DNA from: a virus
DNA length: 32,093 nucleotides
Direction: 5' to 3' (one strand)
IMG/VR virus record: IMGVR_UViG_3300042894_001988
Span: 1-32,093 of that record
Part shown: positions 1,182 through 6,703 of the stretch, piece by piece
Layout: every line of letters begins with the position of its first letter
Position numbering within the stretch: the stretch's first letter is position 1
Program-made: the position numbers and the translations under genes
The notes under the pieces: generated by a model
Seen by the model: only the letters and a program-made list of their open reading frames with translations
Told to the model about the DNA's origin: nothing
Database searches by the model: none

Positions 1182-1346
1182 TTAATGGTTGCCGAACATT
1201 GGTTCATCGTTACTACCACTTTGTTCCGCTTTTAATCTTTGATACATCTCATTGTACTGTCTTTCTAATTCATCTAATTGTTCAATACCTAATGTAGATT
1301 TAATTTGTTCTACAATTTCTTTAATTTGTTCTTCGTTCTTAATCAT
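1182..1346 (-). CDS. Small coiled-coil protein, unknown function
   Basis: A 54-residue reading frame starting MIKNEEQIKEIVEQIK and ending EPMFGNH. The first 40 residues are Glu/Lys/Gln/Leu-rich with heptad spacing, so a single coiled-coil helix is likely, followed by a short polar tail. Its ATG overlaps the stop of the sigma-like gene by 8 bases (ATGATTAA), and it sits between that gene and terS in the same operon. No family is recognised. The overlap and amino-acid composition support a real gene; a role near the packaging machinery is only a guess from position. Confidence 0.65.
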   Translation of the reverse strand: MIKNEEQIKEIVEQIKSTLGIEQLDELERQYNEMYQRLKAEQSGSNDEPMFGNH

Positions 1347-1890
1347 TTTCAAATGGGTTTTGTATATTATTCTTTAAATGTTTCTTTACTTTTTTTACTG
1401 CTAAGAACACAGTTGATTTACTTATCCTTATATCTTTACTTACTTCATCTAATGTTTTATCTGAGAACCAATAGTGTTCATATATCATTGCACTACTCCA
1501 TCCCTTTCTTTTCTTCATACCATTTAGTTCTTCTTTTACTTCATCGTATGCCTTATCTATCCTTTCATCATTCTGATAATCATACTCTATATCTACTTCA
1601 TCATAATCGTCCGACAATCTTTTCTTTTTGTTATCTCTTTTAATACCATTGATAAATCTACTTAGGATAAATTGTCTACAATATTGTAAGTTAAATGAAT
1701 CTAAGTAAAATAATTTTTCGTTACACTTCTCTCCTAAATACAGGTATAATTCAGATACTAACTCTTCTGTTGTTTCTTGATTATGTGATATATTAAATGC
1801 TACCGCTCCCAACCACTTATGATGCTTTCTATATAATGTATCTAATCTTTCATTACATTGTATTTGGATTGATTGTGTAACTTCGTTCAT
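1339..1890 (-). CDS. RNA polymerase sigma-70-like factor (putative)
   Basis: 183 residues. Residues 23-85 (HHKWLGAVAFNIS, then TTEELVSELYLYLGE) resemble sigma region 2, which binds core polymerase and the -10 element. Residues about 138-172 (YEHYWFSDKTLDEVSKDIRI, then SKSTVFLAVKKVKKHLKN) resemble the region 4 helix-turn-helix. An acidic linker at 94-110 separates the two, and there is no region 1 or 3, as in ECF-type factors. It lies in the leftward late unit just upstream of the packaging genes, so a role in late transcription is plausible. It could instead be a generic HTH protein. The start overlaps the upstream stop as TAATG. Confidence 0.65.
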   Translation of the reverse strand: MNEVTQSIQIQCNERLDTLYRKHHKWLGAVAFNISHNQETTEELVSELYLYLGEKCNEKLFYLDSFNLQYCRQFILSRFINGIKRDNKKKRLSDDYDEVDIEYDYQNDERIDKAYDEVKEELNGMKKRKGWSSAMIYEHYWFSDKTLDEVSKDIRISKSTVFLAVKKVKKHLKNNIQNPFEND

Positions 1891-2936: not shown

Positions 2937-3305
2937 TTATTTTTTATTTTCTTCTGATTTTAAATTTATATATTCCATTAATTTTCTATCATTTAATATC
3001 CTATCCATTTGTTTACTGATGAATTCTCTTACATCTTCTCTATTTGTTAACCCTTTTATTTCTTTATTTATGGATGCCCAAAATTCTTTTCTATTCTCTA
3101 TTTTATAATCTCTATATAATGCTATTCGGTTTATTGCTGCCCCCACTACTGCTCTCCTTTCTCTTTGTTCTTTAGAATGTTTTTGTGCTTCAATTATATA
3201 ACACCCCTTACATAGCGCTCTCTTTGGTTGTTTAGGATGTTGTTCATCAAATATTACACCACATGTTCCACATTGTGTTGATAGTTGTCTTAAACTTCTT
3301 GCCAT
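2937..3305 (-). CDS. Zinc-ribbon-like protein, unknown function
   Basis: 122 residues. Cys12/Cys15 (CGTC) and Cys32/Cys35 (CKGC) form a four-Cys arrangement typical of a zinc ribbon, followed by a highly charged helical C-terminus. The ribbon could bind nucleic acid or a protein partner. It overlaps the next gene upstream by one base (3305) and precedes the methyltransferase. A link to HNH proteins was considered, but no HNH catalytic histidines are seen. Confidence 0.7.
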   Translation of the reverse strand: MARSLRQLSTQCGTCGVIFDEQHPKQPKRALCKGCYIIEAQKHSKEQRERRAVVGAAINRIALYRDYKIENRKEFWASINKEIKGLTNREDVREFISKQMDRILNDRKLMEYINLKSEENKK

Positions 3306-3487
3306 TAAAATAATTTTATTCTATTATCACACTTAAACAATTTATCTAAGTATTCTCTCCTTCTATCACAACCACAATCAGTATAGCCCATTTTACTTGC
3401 TATCCATCCTGCTATTTGTTTTCCGTGTCCTAATGTCACTACGGAGATTAATCCTTCTAACCACGTTCCAAAACGAAATATACACAT
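3305..3487 (-). CDS. Small amphipathic Cys-motif protein
   Basis: 60 residues. The first half (WLEGLISVVTLGHGKQIAGW) is amphipathic to hydrophobic; the second half carries GYTDCGCDRRREYLDKLF, a CGC-x-RR pattern I associate with short proteins in Bacteroidota phages, from memory. No function is known to me. Being short with one hydrophobic segment it could associate with membrane, so a lysis role is conceivable but unsupported. It overlaps both neighbours by one base (3305 and 3487), so it is translationally coupled. Confidence 0.65.
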   Translation of the reverse strand: MCIFRFGTWLEGLISVVTLGHGKQIAGWIASKMGYTDCGCDRRREYLDKLFKCDNRIKLF

Positions 3488-3939
3488 TAGTTATTTACAT
3501 TTAAACATTTACCATTTAGTTTCAAAGCAATAATCATTTTACTTTCTATCTCTCTTAAATCTTTCTTACTGATATCACCCATATCTTTTACTATTTCAAA
3601 GGTATGTGCATCTATACCCCATATATCAAATGATTTATGTAATGAAGGGAACGTTGAATATCCTTTTAATTTTTGATTGAAATATACTCCTCTATGGTTC
3701 ATAAATCTATATGTAGGTTTACTTTTAGTACAACCAATATAAGTTTCACCTAATGGATTAATGATACGATATATAATACCATTCTTATTTGCTTTTAATA
3801 ATTCATTTGTAAGAGGACGAGTTCTGATAGATTGACACACTTTACAATGTGGTTGTAATCCATCTTTACTTCTTTTATACTTTGAGAATTGTGTTGTAGG
3901 TTTAGAGTGATTACAACTACCACATAGTTTTGTTGCCAT
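3487..3939 (-). CDS. GIY-YIG endonuclease with N-terminal zinc finger
   Basis: 150 residues. Residues 6-35 hold CGSC and CKVC pairs forming a zinc finger of the kind seen at the N-terminus of phage homing nucleases. The nuclease core follows: GIIY at 54-57, YIG at 67-69, an Arg in the helix YRFMNH (R78) and a candidate metal-binding Glu in REIESKMI (E132). All elements of a GIY-YIG active site are present. It is the first gene after the promoter at 3962-3993. It may be a free-standing homing endonuclease; no intron is evident around it. Confidence 0.85.
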   Translation of the reverse strand: MATKLCGSCNHSKPTTQFSKYKRSKDGLQPHCKVCQSIRTRPLTNELLKANKNGIIYRIINPLGETYIGCTKSKPTYRFMNHRGVYFNQKLKGYSTFPSLHKSFDIWGIDAHTFEIVKDMGDISKKDLREIESKMIIALKLNGKCLNVNN

Positions 3940-3961: not shown

Positions 3962-3993
3962 TAAAGATACTACATATAAGTATCAATTCCAAA
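3962..3993 (-). promoter_or_regulatory. Bacteroidota-type promoter for the late leftward operon
   Basis: On the minus strand TTTG (3993-3990), a 20-base spacer and TATCTTTA (3969-3962) match the Bacteroidota housekeeping promoter TTTG-N19-20-TANNTTTG except for the last base. It lies 22 bases upstream of the GIY-YIG ATG, just after a terminator, and heads the operon running through terS and terL. Confidence 0.8.
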
Positions 3994-4020
3994 TATTTTA
4001 AGTAAAAAGTTTTAGACAAT

Positions 4021-4050
4021 AAAAAACCCCCATCGGAGAAGATGAGGGTT
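4021..4050 (-). terminator. Rho-independent terminator
   Basis: Read leftward, AACCCTCATC pairs with GATGGGGGTT (one A-C mismatch) around a TTCTCC loop and is followed by six T. A second hairpin (GTAGAG/CTCTAC) lies just upstream at about 4053-4075. It ends transcripts from 4700-4164 and the short unit starting near 4126. Confidence 0.85.
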
Positions 4051-4126
4051 GGTAGAGTATTATTTGTACCTCTACATAATTTATAAGGATATTCAGCCTA
4101 AATGGCACTAAAGAACTGAACATTGA
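4021..4126 (-). ncRNA. Candidate small RNA of about 105 nt
   Basis: A perfect consensus promoter at 4132-4163 points leftward into this stretch, which ends at the terminator 4021-4050, so a discrete transcript of about 105 nt is predicted. It can fold into three stems: TTCA/TGAA enclosing GCC/GGC around ATTTA (about 4089-4119), GTAGAG/CTCTAC (about 4053-4075), and the terminator hairpin. A 41-codon frame begins at 4123 but runs through the terminator stem to 3998, so a coding role is unlikely. It resembles no known RNA family that I recognise; existence is inferred from signals only. Confidence 0.5.
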
Positions 4127-4131
4127 TATAA

Positions 4132-4163
4132 CAAAGATAATTTATTTTTTATTAATATCCAAA
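4132..4163 (-). promoter_or_regulatory. Perfect-consensus Bacteroidota promoter
   Basis: On the minus strand TTTG (4163-4160), exactly 20 bases, then TATCTTTG (4139-4132). This is the only site in the window matching every consensus base. It begins immediately after the stop codon of the GIY-YIG gene ending at 4164 and drives the short unit that stops at 4021. Confidence 0.75.
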
Positions 4164-4700
4164 TTATTTGTAGTAAAATATATAATCTTTTGTATAATTT
4201 CTTAATCCTTTTAAGACTCTATGTATTGATTTATATCTAATACCCAATTCAACTGAACATTCTCTTACTGATAAATGTTCTTTTACTTTACCATCTATTA
4301 AACTTTTAGAATAAAAAGGTTTAGATAATTTTAATTTAGTTGCTCTTATTGAACTATCTCTTATTTTATCTAATACTCTATAATCTTGTGTACCATCCCA
4401 TTCATATCCATATTGTAAATTTAATTCTTTTTCTCTTTCACTTGCAATATTAATATCAGTATGAACTTCTAAGATTTCGTATTCATTAAATTTTTGTTCC
4501 TTAATTCTATTTTCAATTCTTTTGGAACATCCTATTTTAATTCCTGGTATGTGATAAATTGTATATGCCATTTTACTATTGTTTGCTGCTGTCTGCTTTC
4601 GTCTTTCATTTGGGTTGAGTTTTCTTGAATGCCCCCAGCCCCCATAACATTTTTTTATATTATGAAAACCGGAGTATAAACTCAACACTAAATGTTTCAT
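4164..4700 (-). CDS. GIY-YIG-like homing nuclease with C-terminal NUMOD1-like domain
   Basis: 178 residues. The nuclease-like core starts at YTIYHI (46-51), followed by KIGCSKRIENRIKEQ (55-69), where IG-C and Arg61/Arg65 match the YIG and catalytic-Arg region, and a Glu-rich helix EREKELNLQYGY (88-99). Residues 143-168 (LSVRECSVELGI, KSIHRVLKG) fit a NUMOD1-type DNA-binding helix-turn-helix. The first 43 residues are unlike the family, and Met44 (4571) is an alternative start. The ATG at 4700 is kept because a promoter at 4753-4784 lies at a suitable distance. It has its own promoter and terminator, which suggests a mobile cassette. Confidence 0.75.
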   Translation of the reverse strand: MKHLVLSLYSGFHNIKKCYGGWGHSRKLNPNERRKQTAANNSKMAYTIYHIPGIKIGCSKRIENRIKEQKFNEYEILEVHTDINIASEREKELNLQYGYEWDGTQDYRVLDKIRDSSIRATKLKLSKPFYSKSLIDGKVKEHLSVRECSVELGIRYKSIHRVLKGLRNYTKDYIFYYK

Positions 4701-4854: not shown

Positions 4855-5862
4855 CTATTTTATAGTGATTATACCATTTTCATCTTTGGGTAATTCCCAT
4901 ACATTTATATATTCATACCCTTTAGGTCCACTAGTTAACTTTAATAATAAAGGTATCGTTTTTAACAACGGCATCTTCTCACTATGATATATGATAACAT
5001 TCATTACTTTATGAACGAAGTCTACAAACATATCATTGTTATCATTAACAATCTCAACACCATTTAAGGTATTATCTTTGAATATAGTGAAACCATTTTG
5101 AGTTGCACTTCTACTAGTCTTAACATCATCCAACTTAACACCATAGAAACTTTCAAACCAATCTACACCGAACTCAAAACATATGTTACTGATAATTGGT
5201 TTAGCACCTTTCTTAATAAATGTTTCACACTCATCCGTTAGTAAACCATTTGTTTTAACATTTACATTAGGTTCATAATCCGTTTTAGATAAATCAAAGT
5301 TATCCTTACAATCTTGCACAATTACATCCTTACCATCAAAGATAGAATATACACCTACAATGTCACTTTGATTATCACAACACATTTGTAATGATGCAAA
5401 CCTTCTCATCATATCAAACTCAATACTCCAACTCGGTGATTGATTACCTAATGTATCTAATTGATTGAACTCATCTCTACTCATCGCTCTATACACTAAA
5501 ACTAATTGTTCGGTATGTAGGTTAAACTTAGAAACATACTCATACCACATATCAAACTCTTTTACATTTCTACTACCATCGTTTATATAAGGTAACATAG
5601 CTAAACATAATAAAGCTAACTTAGTATTTTCTGCAGCTTTGTTAGTTTTAGTATCTACTCTACTACTGATACCCCAACGAACTAACTCCCAATTCTTTAA
5701 CATAATTTCCCAACTACTACCCTTACCTTTATTCTCATTCATATTACCACATAAAGTTTCCATTAAGTTTGATAACGCCATTTCTTTTTCTGCGTAACTT
5801 AAATGTAATAATGAACTACTACTTTGTTTAGCTATCTTTTTAGCTTTTTGTTTCTTACCCAT
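4855..5862 (-). CDS. Putative ADP-ribosyltransferase (R-S-E type), divergent
   Basis: 335 residues, by far the largest early gene. Three motifs occur in ADP-ribosyltransferase order and spacing: VYRAMS with Arg125 (NAD-binding Arg), SPSWS at 142-146 followed by a helix ending RRFAS (the S-T-S-like strand), and DECETFIKKG with E211-x-E213 (ExE, the catalytic Glu being E213). The N-terminal 20 residues are basic and Ser-rich, and residues 80-92 are hydrophobic. Known phage transferases of this kind modify host polymerase or other host proteins early in infection. Overall similarity outside the motifs is not recognised, so this is an inference from motif order; catalytic activity is unproven. 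Confidence 0.55.
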   Translation of the reverse strand: MGKKQKAKKIAKQSSSSLLHLSYAEKEMALSNLMETLCGNMNENKGKGSSWEIMLKNWELVRWGISSRVDTKTNKAAENTKLALLCLAMLPYINDGSRNVKEFDMWYEYVSKFNLHTEQLVLVYRAMSRDEFNQLDTLGNQSPSWSIEFDMMRRFASLQMCCDNQSDIVGVYSIFDGKDVIVQDCKDNFDLSKTDYEPNVNVKTNGLLTDECETFIKKGAKPIISNICFEFGVDWFESFYGVKLDDVKTSRSATQNGFTIFKDNTLNGVEIVNDNNDMFVDFVHKVMNVIIYHSEKMPLLKTIPLLLKLTSGPKGYEYINVWELPKDENGIITIK

Positions 5863-6355: not shown

Positions 6356-6703
6356 TTACTTAATTCCTTTTTCTAAAGGATAGATACCTAATAATTCAGT
6401 AGTAAAATCTAAATTGTATCTAACTAATTTAATGAATTGTTTTTCACTTATATCACAACCATATTTGAAATATTGTGAATTTGCACAATCCATAGTACCA
6501 TATTCCATTTTTACTTTACTTCTTTCACCATCTTCAAAGTATTCTGTAATACACATAAATACTTCATCAAAATTTCTAGATGTTTCGTAGTAATAAGTAA
6601 TTTTACTACCATCAATACTTTTTTCAATAGAAGGTTTAGTTTTTTTGAAATCTTTTGAAATCTTTACTAACGTTTCTTTACTTAAATTATAACTTTGTAC
6701 CAT
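6356..6703 (-). CDS. Hypothetical protein
   Basis: 115 residues with alternating strand-like segments (KITYYYETSR, CITEYFEDGE, KVKMEYGTMD) and no recognised motif; the fold may be a small alpha/beta protein. It is flanked by hairpins on both sides (6324-6347 and 6755-6797), so it is nearly monocistronic. The ATG is preceded by an A-rich leader. Function is unknown. Confidence 0.65.
   Translation of the reverse strand: MVQSYNLSKETLVKISKDFKKTKPSIEKSIDGSKITYYYETSRNFDEVFMCITEYFEDGERSKVKMEYGTMDCANSQYFKYGCDISEKQFIKLVRYNLDFTTELLGIYPLEKGIK

Follow-up and report, generated by a model that had tools for sequence, protein, structure and literature searches.

Why would a phage keep a short, gene-free stretch of DNA that carries a promoter and a terminator of its own? 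The question is raised by a 32,093-base IMG/VR virus record, covered in full by the window analysed here, in which a promoter-RNA-terminator unit spans positions 4163-4019 of the minus strand. A preliminary description had suggested a small regulatory RNA that might control a switch between early and late regions. Comparison of relatives points instead to a homing-type endonuclease, whose start codon covaries with a loop of the RNA. The capsid-type protein of the window has hundreds of relatives in metagenomic viruses; since it matches the Nonlabens phages P12024S/L, albeit distantly only (28%), the phage probably infects a member of the Bacteroidota, and the promoter type agrees.

A conserved structured RNA between promoter and terminator

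The features of the locus are collected in Table 1. The promoter of the RNA, P1, follows the Bacteroidota consensus TTTG/TAnnTTTG (PMC6847099). The earlier claim that it is the only perfect consensus promoter in the window holds for a 20-nt spacer, for which it is the sole perfect copy, and fails for spacers of 17-22, with which there are six other perfect matches (7 in all vs 2.7 expected by chance). Considered by itself in the window, the predicted promoter is weak evidence; it becomes strong once conservation is counted, because a perfect TTTG-N19/20-TAnnTTTG recurs at an unchanged distance in 13 of the 15 loci of a close group of relatives. With the start estimated from the -7 numbering of PMC6847099 (G at -5) and the end from the terminator, the RNA comes out at about 108 nt (start near 4127, end near 4019), slightly longer than the approximately 105 nt first proposed.

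Table 1. Features of the small RNA locus in the window.
Feature	Position	Strand	Basis
Promoter P1 of the small RNA	4132..4163	-	TTTG-N20-TATCTTTG; perfect in 13/15 close-group loci
Small RNA	4019..4127	-	~108 nt, ends estimated; fold z=-4.8; 16 covariance-model homologs; covariation
Stem-loop 1 with 19-nt loop	4089..4123	-	predicted fold and covariation
Conserved loop segment CUUUAGUGCCAUUUAG, presumed pairing segment	4098..4113	-	reverse complement of AAAUGGC start-codon context
Stem-loop 2, GUAGAG/CUCUAC, conserved loop GUACAAAUAAUA	4052..4075	-	compensatory changes at 3/6 pairs
Stem-loop 3, intrinsic terminator with U-run	4019..4050	-	both sides changed at 7/10 pairs
Promoter P2 of the downstream endonuclease	3962..3993	-	TTTG-N20-TATCTTTA, directly after the terminator
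Downstream GIY-YIG homing-type endonuclease gene, endonuclease-VII-like CxxC N-terminus	3487..3939	-	PHROG homing endonuclease and endonuclease VII matches
Upstream endonuclease-like gene, GIY-YIG-like with I-HmuI NUMOD domain	4164..4571	-	PF22083, weak T5orf172

The three potential stems noticed earlier recur in the predicted fold, which has three hairpins (MFE -31.8 kcal/mol, z=-4.8); similar folds are predicted for homologs (z -3.7 to -5.4). The last hairpin is the rho-independent terminator already recognised, with a 10-bp stem (4050-4025) followed by T6, and it heads the list of terminator-like sites in the first 12 kb. A search of Rfam 15 with the RNA gave no family at the gathering threshold and nothing credible below it, as the absence of a known family had led one to expect, and a tRNA/tmRNA search of the unit gave none. 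The stretch also proved gene-free: a 41-aa frame runs through the unit, but most homologs lack it and show no conserved reading frames, and a small peptide gene was rejected. Use of the loop within the molecule, through pairing of CUUUA with UAGAG of stem-loop 2, is possible by eye; it competes with stem-loop 2 and was likewise set aside.

Homologs were gathered by a sequence search of 43 related records, BLAST of fetched loci and an IMG/VR pattern scan. The first were found at 72-82% identity, and a covariance model, the E-values of which are rough, returned 16 members at E<=2e-4, one per record. Most matches of the loop-pattern scan were judged to be chance, often the antisense of ordinary gene starts. 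A locus search using the orphan protein 4855-5862 returned nothing, and the two flanking proteins have no relatives in isolated phages and host genomes, save for a single fecal phage record, unannotated, that gave a partial match.

Are the stems retained by selection on structure? On the covariance-model alignment, which was fitted to the structure and leans towards it, 97.2% of helix cells are paired, vs 31-52% when the partner strand is slid as a control; cells changed on both sides number 54, vs at most 5 in the slid controls. Stem 2 alternates visibly among GUAGAG/CUCUAC, AGAGUG/CACUCU and AGAGAG/CUCUCU. The stems are thus kept and covary in relatives, which supports the earlier view of an independent small RNA, and the comparison indicates that the unit encodes a structured non-coding RNA outside Rfam.

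In a set of distant relatives (group II: L235-L242, L247, L248, L283, L286, L300, L182, L205 and L219), the RNA is shaped as a long two-part helix with a conserved one-sided bulge, CUUAAnnnAAUAC, followed by a terminator hairpin. Stem-loop 2 of group I, for its part, keeps AAAUAAUAC.

Genes and promoters around the RNA

In most relatives, the gene preceding the RNA is a conserved one beginning MAKDPAV, in place of which the window has the upstream endonuclease-like gene. The latter likely starts at 4571, not 4700, as its homologs begin MYYIYH. The gene following the RNA is a homing-type endonuclease in all relatives read far enough. These enzymes are of mutually unrelated kinds, either GIY-YIG enzymes that carry an endonuclease-VII-like CxxC part or various sorts of HNH enzyme (PF13392 HNH_3; PHROG homing/HNH endonuclease matches), and the combination of a nuclease domain with differing types at one site marks them as putative homing endonucleases. 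Some endonuclease genes occupy the same place without the RNA (L230, L245); the RNA was never seen without an endonuclease gene, except on contigs ending too early.

A second promoter, P2, right after the terminator, is a detail that the preliminary description had missed. In the close group, TTTG-N20-TAnnTTTA is found between the terminator and the endonuclease gene, mostly 54-60 nt before its ATG, and because of this intervening promoter the RNA and the endonuclease are predicted to be two transcription units in a row. Read-through into gene 3939, raised earlier as one of the outcomes that would speak against a separate RNA, is not needed given the gene's own predicted promoter. The endings of the two promoters differ consistently in the close group, TAnnTTTG for the RNA and TAnnTTTA for the endonuclease, possibly reflecting two strengths or classes. 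The window holds four TTTG-N20-TAnnTTTA sites vs 0.7 expected.

Several further elements lie nearby. A sigma-factor-like gene (1339-1890, minus strand; PHROG 1740, E=1.6e-6) belongs to the operon behind the endonuclease, with terminase genes next in relatives. A conserved 60-aa Cys-containing protein (3305-3487, minus strand; MCIIKLGN.. in relatives) is often encoded directly after the endonuclease gene or overlapping its stop codon, and has no match in isolated phages or one-per-species genomes. A second candidate RNA (4851-4784, minus strand) has a hairpin AAAAGGA-(UUUCCGCCAUGUUGU)-UCCUUUU, its loop carrying GCCAU, and behind it a 13-bp terminator (fold z=-3.6). It is followed by a promoter, TTTG-N20-TATATTTA, at 4784-4753 and by the endonuclease gene 4571-4164, a layout that matches the main unit.

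The position of the unit before an operon with the sigma-like gene and, in relatives, terminase genes would suit a leader or attenuator like that of lambda pR', in which the RNA ends at the terminator unless an antiterminator opens the sigma-like and late genes. This reading is very unlikely, as a second conserved promoter is predicted after the terminator and the matching of loop and start codon described below is left unexplained. The RNA may still affect the genes behind the endonuclease, which share its orientation, in an indirect way.

Complementarity between the loop and the following endonuclease's start codon

In the close group, the conserved loop reads CUUUAnnGCCAUUU, the reverse complement of a start-codon context AAAUGGC. 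Within the presumed pairing segment, CUUUA and GCCAUUU are invariant among close homologs, and the mean unpaired probability in the predicted fold is 0.74; in other predicted folds, too, the loops are mostly unpaired. An unpaired loop complementary to the endonuclease start codon reads GUGCCAUUU in the window and GUCAUUU, GCCAUCUU, GUCAUAUU or other sequences elsewhere. In the distant relatives, the matching motif is located in the terminator loop, not in stem-loop 1. There, the loop GUCAUUU occurs where the endonuclease begins AUGAC, GCCAUCUU matches AAGAUGGC in L239 (11 nt in all), GUCAUAUU matches AAUAUGAC in L247, GUCAUACU matches AGUAUGAU in L286 and UAGCCAUUU matches AAAUGGCUA in L182.

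Loops pair better with their own endonuclease start than with swapped ones (-9.98 vs -7.80 kcal/mol, p=2e-5, n=35), and the same p is obtained with the whole RNA in place of the chosen loop. The best pairing site in the downstream region covers the AUG at 14 of 28 loci, vs 1.3 expected. In control tests at these loci, no pairing preference is seen for the MAKDPAV gene start (p=0.22) or for windows displaced by -45, -30 or 90 nt (p 0.22-0.87); a displacement of 30 nt gives p=0.026 and one of 60 nt p=0.07. The permutation tests ignore phylogeny, and these controls address kinship only in part; since they are mostly null, shared ancestry by itself does not appear to explain the start-codon signal.

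The match recurs in a fresh sample, for which GIY-YIG genes were taken from a protein search, contigs already used were dropped, and the terminator hairpin and loop before each gene were found by a script. At the 20 loci with a machine-extracted loop, the runs of pairing with the own start reach 8.05 nt vs 5.64 for swapped starts (6.7 s.d., p=2e-5), and the longest pairing is 11 contiguous bp. Examples are L334, which pairs over AACCGAUGGCA (11 nt), L330, over AAGAUGGCAA, and L343, over AAUGACAAAA. At L353, the pairing site lacks an AUG (AAUAGCAA) and the gene starts just after it; the loop reads GCUAUU, which fits the AUG-less site, so that pairing is retained despite the loss of the start codon there. 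Together with the cases above, loop and start codon covary in L239, L247, L286, L182, L334, L330 and L353. The misfits are L248 and, in the fresh sample, two of the 20 (L364, L372), of which L364 resembles members of the close group, where the matching loop is carried by stem 1.

At some loci, the pairing site lies about 10 nt before the endonuclease ATG (L244 4690-4710, L262 2418-2440, and also L352, L353, L329 and L348). In L244 and L262, it begins a frame of four codons (ATGGCACAATTATGA) overlapping the start of the endonuclease, an arrangement that suggests translational coupling.

Could the RNA serve something else, the spacer being merely a hot spot where endonucleases land? Unrelated endonuclease types at the same place would then be expected, as would the genes found there without the RNA. 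This is the least probable of the alternatives: the covariation of loop and start recurs in two data sets with negative controls, and RNAs lacking an endonuclease gene were seen only where the contig stops too soon. In the wider family, the RNA has a conserved seed, predicted to be accessible, that covaries with the start of its presumed target, as in trans-acting antisense small RNAs, and its conserved P1 and terminator define a unit whose transcription is predicted to be independent.

Targets within the window and its close group

Within the window itself, the presumed target in gene 3939 is AAUGGCA over the start codon (3940-3934; 7 bp, -9.1 kcal/mol), which ranks 9th of the 67 starts by pairing with the RNA. 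A possible second target is AAAUGGCA over the start codon of gene 4571 (4573-4566; 8 bp, -12.1 kcal/mol), and the start at 6703 pairs better still (-13.2); chance alone yields several well-pairing starts in a genome like this. A full AAATGGCnnTAAAG target occurs nowhere in the window except on the antisense strand of the RNA itself. The search for pairing with phage mRNAs that had been proposed earlier thus singles out the endonuclease start in the wider family (p=2e-5) and not in the close group taken separately, in which the loop hardly varies and shows no preference for its own start relative to the starts of sister phages (p=0.12). Because pairing in this group is short (7-8 bp), the function of the window's RNA rests on homology, which would assign it gene 3939 as a target and perhaps gene 4571. 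The RNA may act on both endonucleases in this phage, or on more genes.

The latter option would make it a broad regulator, its loop recognising AUGGC/AUGAC at the starts of several mRNAs, of phage or host, including that of the endonuclease. The window starts that pair equally well or better, the nearly constant loop of the close group and a perfect 13-nt pairing of the L229 RNA with its MAIKKELS gene would all fit. This reading is nevertheless unlikely, as the covariation is specific to the endonuclease start and no other gene family serves as a shared best target in the window and six further contigs. The MAIKKELS/MARSLRQL gene, considered as the main target of the close group, was rejected: the match is perfect only in L229 and poor in L119, L222 and L224.

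A separate RNA that may silence a selfish gene

The best explanation, and a fairly probable one, is that a trans-acting small RNA blocks translation of the adjacent homing-type endonuclease. The RNA would be transcribed from its own promoter, fold into three hairpins and stop at its own terminator, with the endonuclease mRNA made from the separate promoter just downstream. The exposed hairpin loop would then base-pair across the start codon of this neighbouring mRNA and so block its translation. In Bacteroidota, translation starts without a Shine-Dalgarno sequence and is tuned by mRNA structure and the bases preceding the AUG (PMC6847099), so an RNA covering the AUG should block initiation; as the loops are also mostly unpaired, repression in trans is proposed. 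The sequence comparison shows that the RNA is structured and conserved, that it and the endonuclease have separate promoters, that an endonuclease gene is its constant neighbour, and that loop and start covary in the wider family. From these we infer that the RNA is made, that it pairs in cells with repression as the effect, and that the endonucleases home.

The same covariation would be predicted by a lock in cis, in which loop and start codon pair only within read-through transcripts that span both RNA and gene, the endonuclease being closed on transcripts from upstream and open on those from P2. RNA and gene do follow one another in the same orientation, the start codon lying 76-195 nt downstream of the loop, and the T4 I-TevI hairpin offers a precedent (PMC3014915, PMC2988022). 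Such a lock needs neither a dedicated promoter nor an intrinsic terminator, yet the RNA conserves both, and the terminator and second promoter stand between it and the gene. It is quite unlikely, and we infer action in trans rather than in cis.

Repression in trans would most likely keep a selfish homing gene switched off. A further, rather doubtful extension is a portable module, a "leashed homing endonuclease", in which the loop of stem-loop 1 or of the terminator is re-tuned to the start codon of each replacing endonuclease, and the resident RNA silences matching endonucleases of co-infecting relatives in trans. If true, loop-start matching would decide which selfish endonucleases can spread.

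Comparison with known systems

Free-standing homing endonucleases cut DNA and bring no obvious benefit. How phages tolerate them is known mainly from T4-like phages, in which the mRNA hides its own start. In Bacteroidota phages, a separate small RNA family seems to restrain them, recognisable by covariation of its loop with the start codon. This is one of the rare cases in which metagenomic sequence allows an antisense interaction to be read, with examples of both sides changing together, and these natural changes make the mechanism directly testable by swap mutations.

In T4-like phages, hairpins in the endonuclease mRNA (I-TevI, Aeh1 mobE, T4 segB) hide the ribosome-binding site (PMC3014915, PMC2988022). 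The two systems share the restraint of phage homing endonucleases at translation initiation by RNA pairing. They differ in that the T4-type hairpins lie within the endonuclease mRNA and hide the Shine-Dalgarno sequence, whereas the RNA described here would be a separate molecule, with promoter and terminator of its own, that pairs over the AUG. The antisense RNA CfrI of cyanophage S-PM2 (Millard 2010, cited in PMC12197685) is also encoded beside a homing endonuclease gene, between it and psbA. However, it is antisense to psbA, on the opposite strand, and the review's account of it (PMC12197685) describes no pairing with the endonuclease start.

Control at translation initiation is thus already known, and a separate small RNA as the means is new; no earlier report of such an RNA pairing with a homing endonuclease start was found in open-access papers. 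The adjacent, non-overlapping RNAs of the type I toxin-antitoxin pairs IstR-1/TisB and OhsC/ShoB offer another parallel, in which a costly gene has a small RNA gene as its neighbour and its translation is stopped by a short stretch of base-pairing. In the present case, the RNA would control a DNA endonuclease of the GIY-YIG or HNH kind instead of a small membrane toxin, and the predicted pairing lies over the AUG. Finally, the lambda pR' leader RNA, which ends at the tR' terminator, is likewise a short terminated RNA before an operon, in that case the late one. It differs from the present unit, in which a second promoter follows the terminator and the loop of the RNA matches the start of the next gene.
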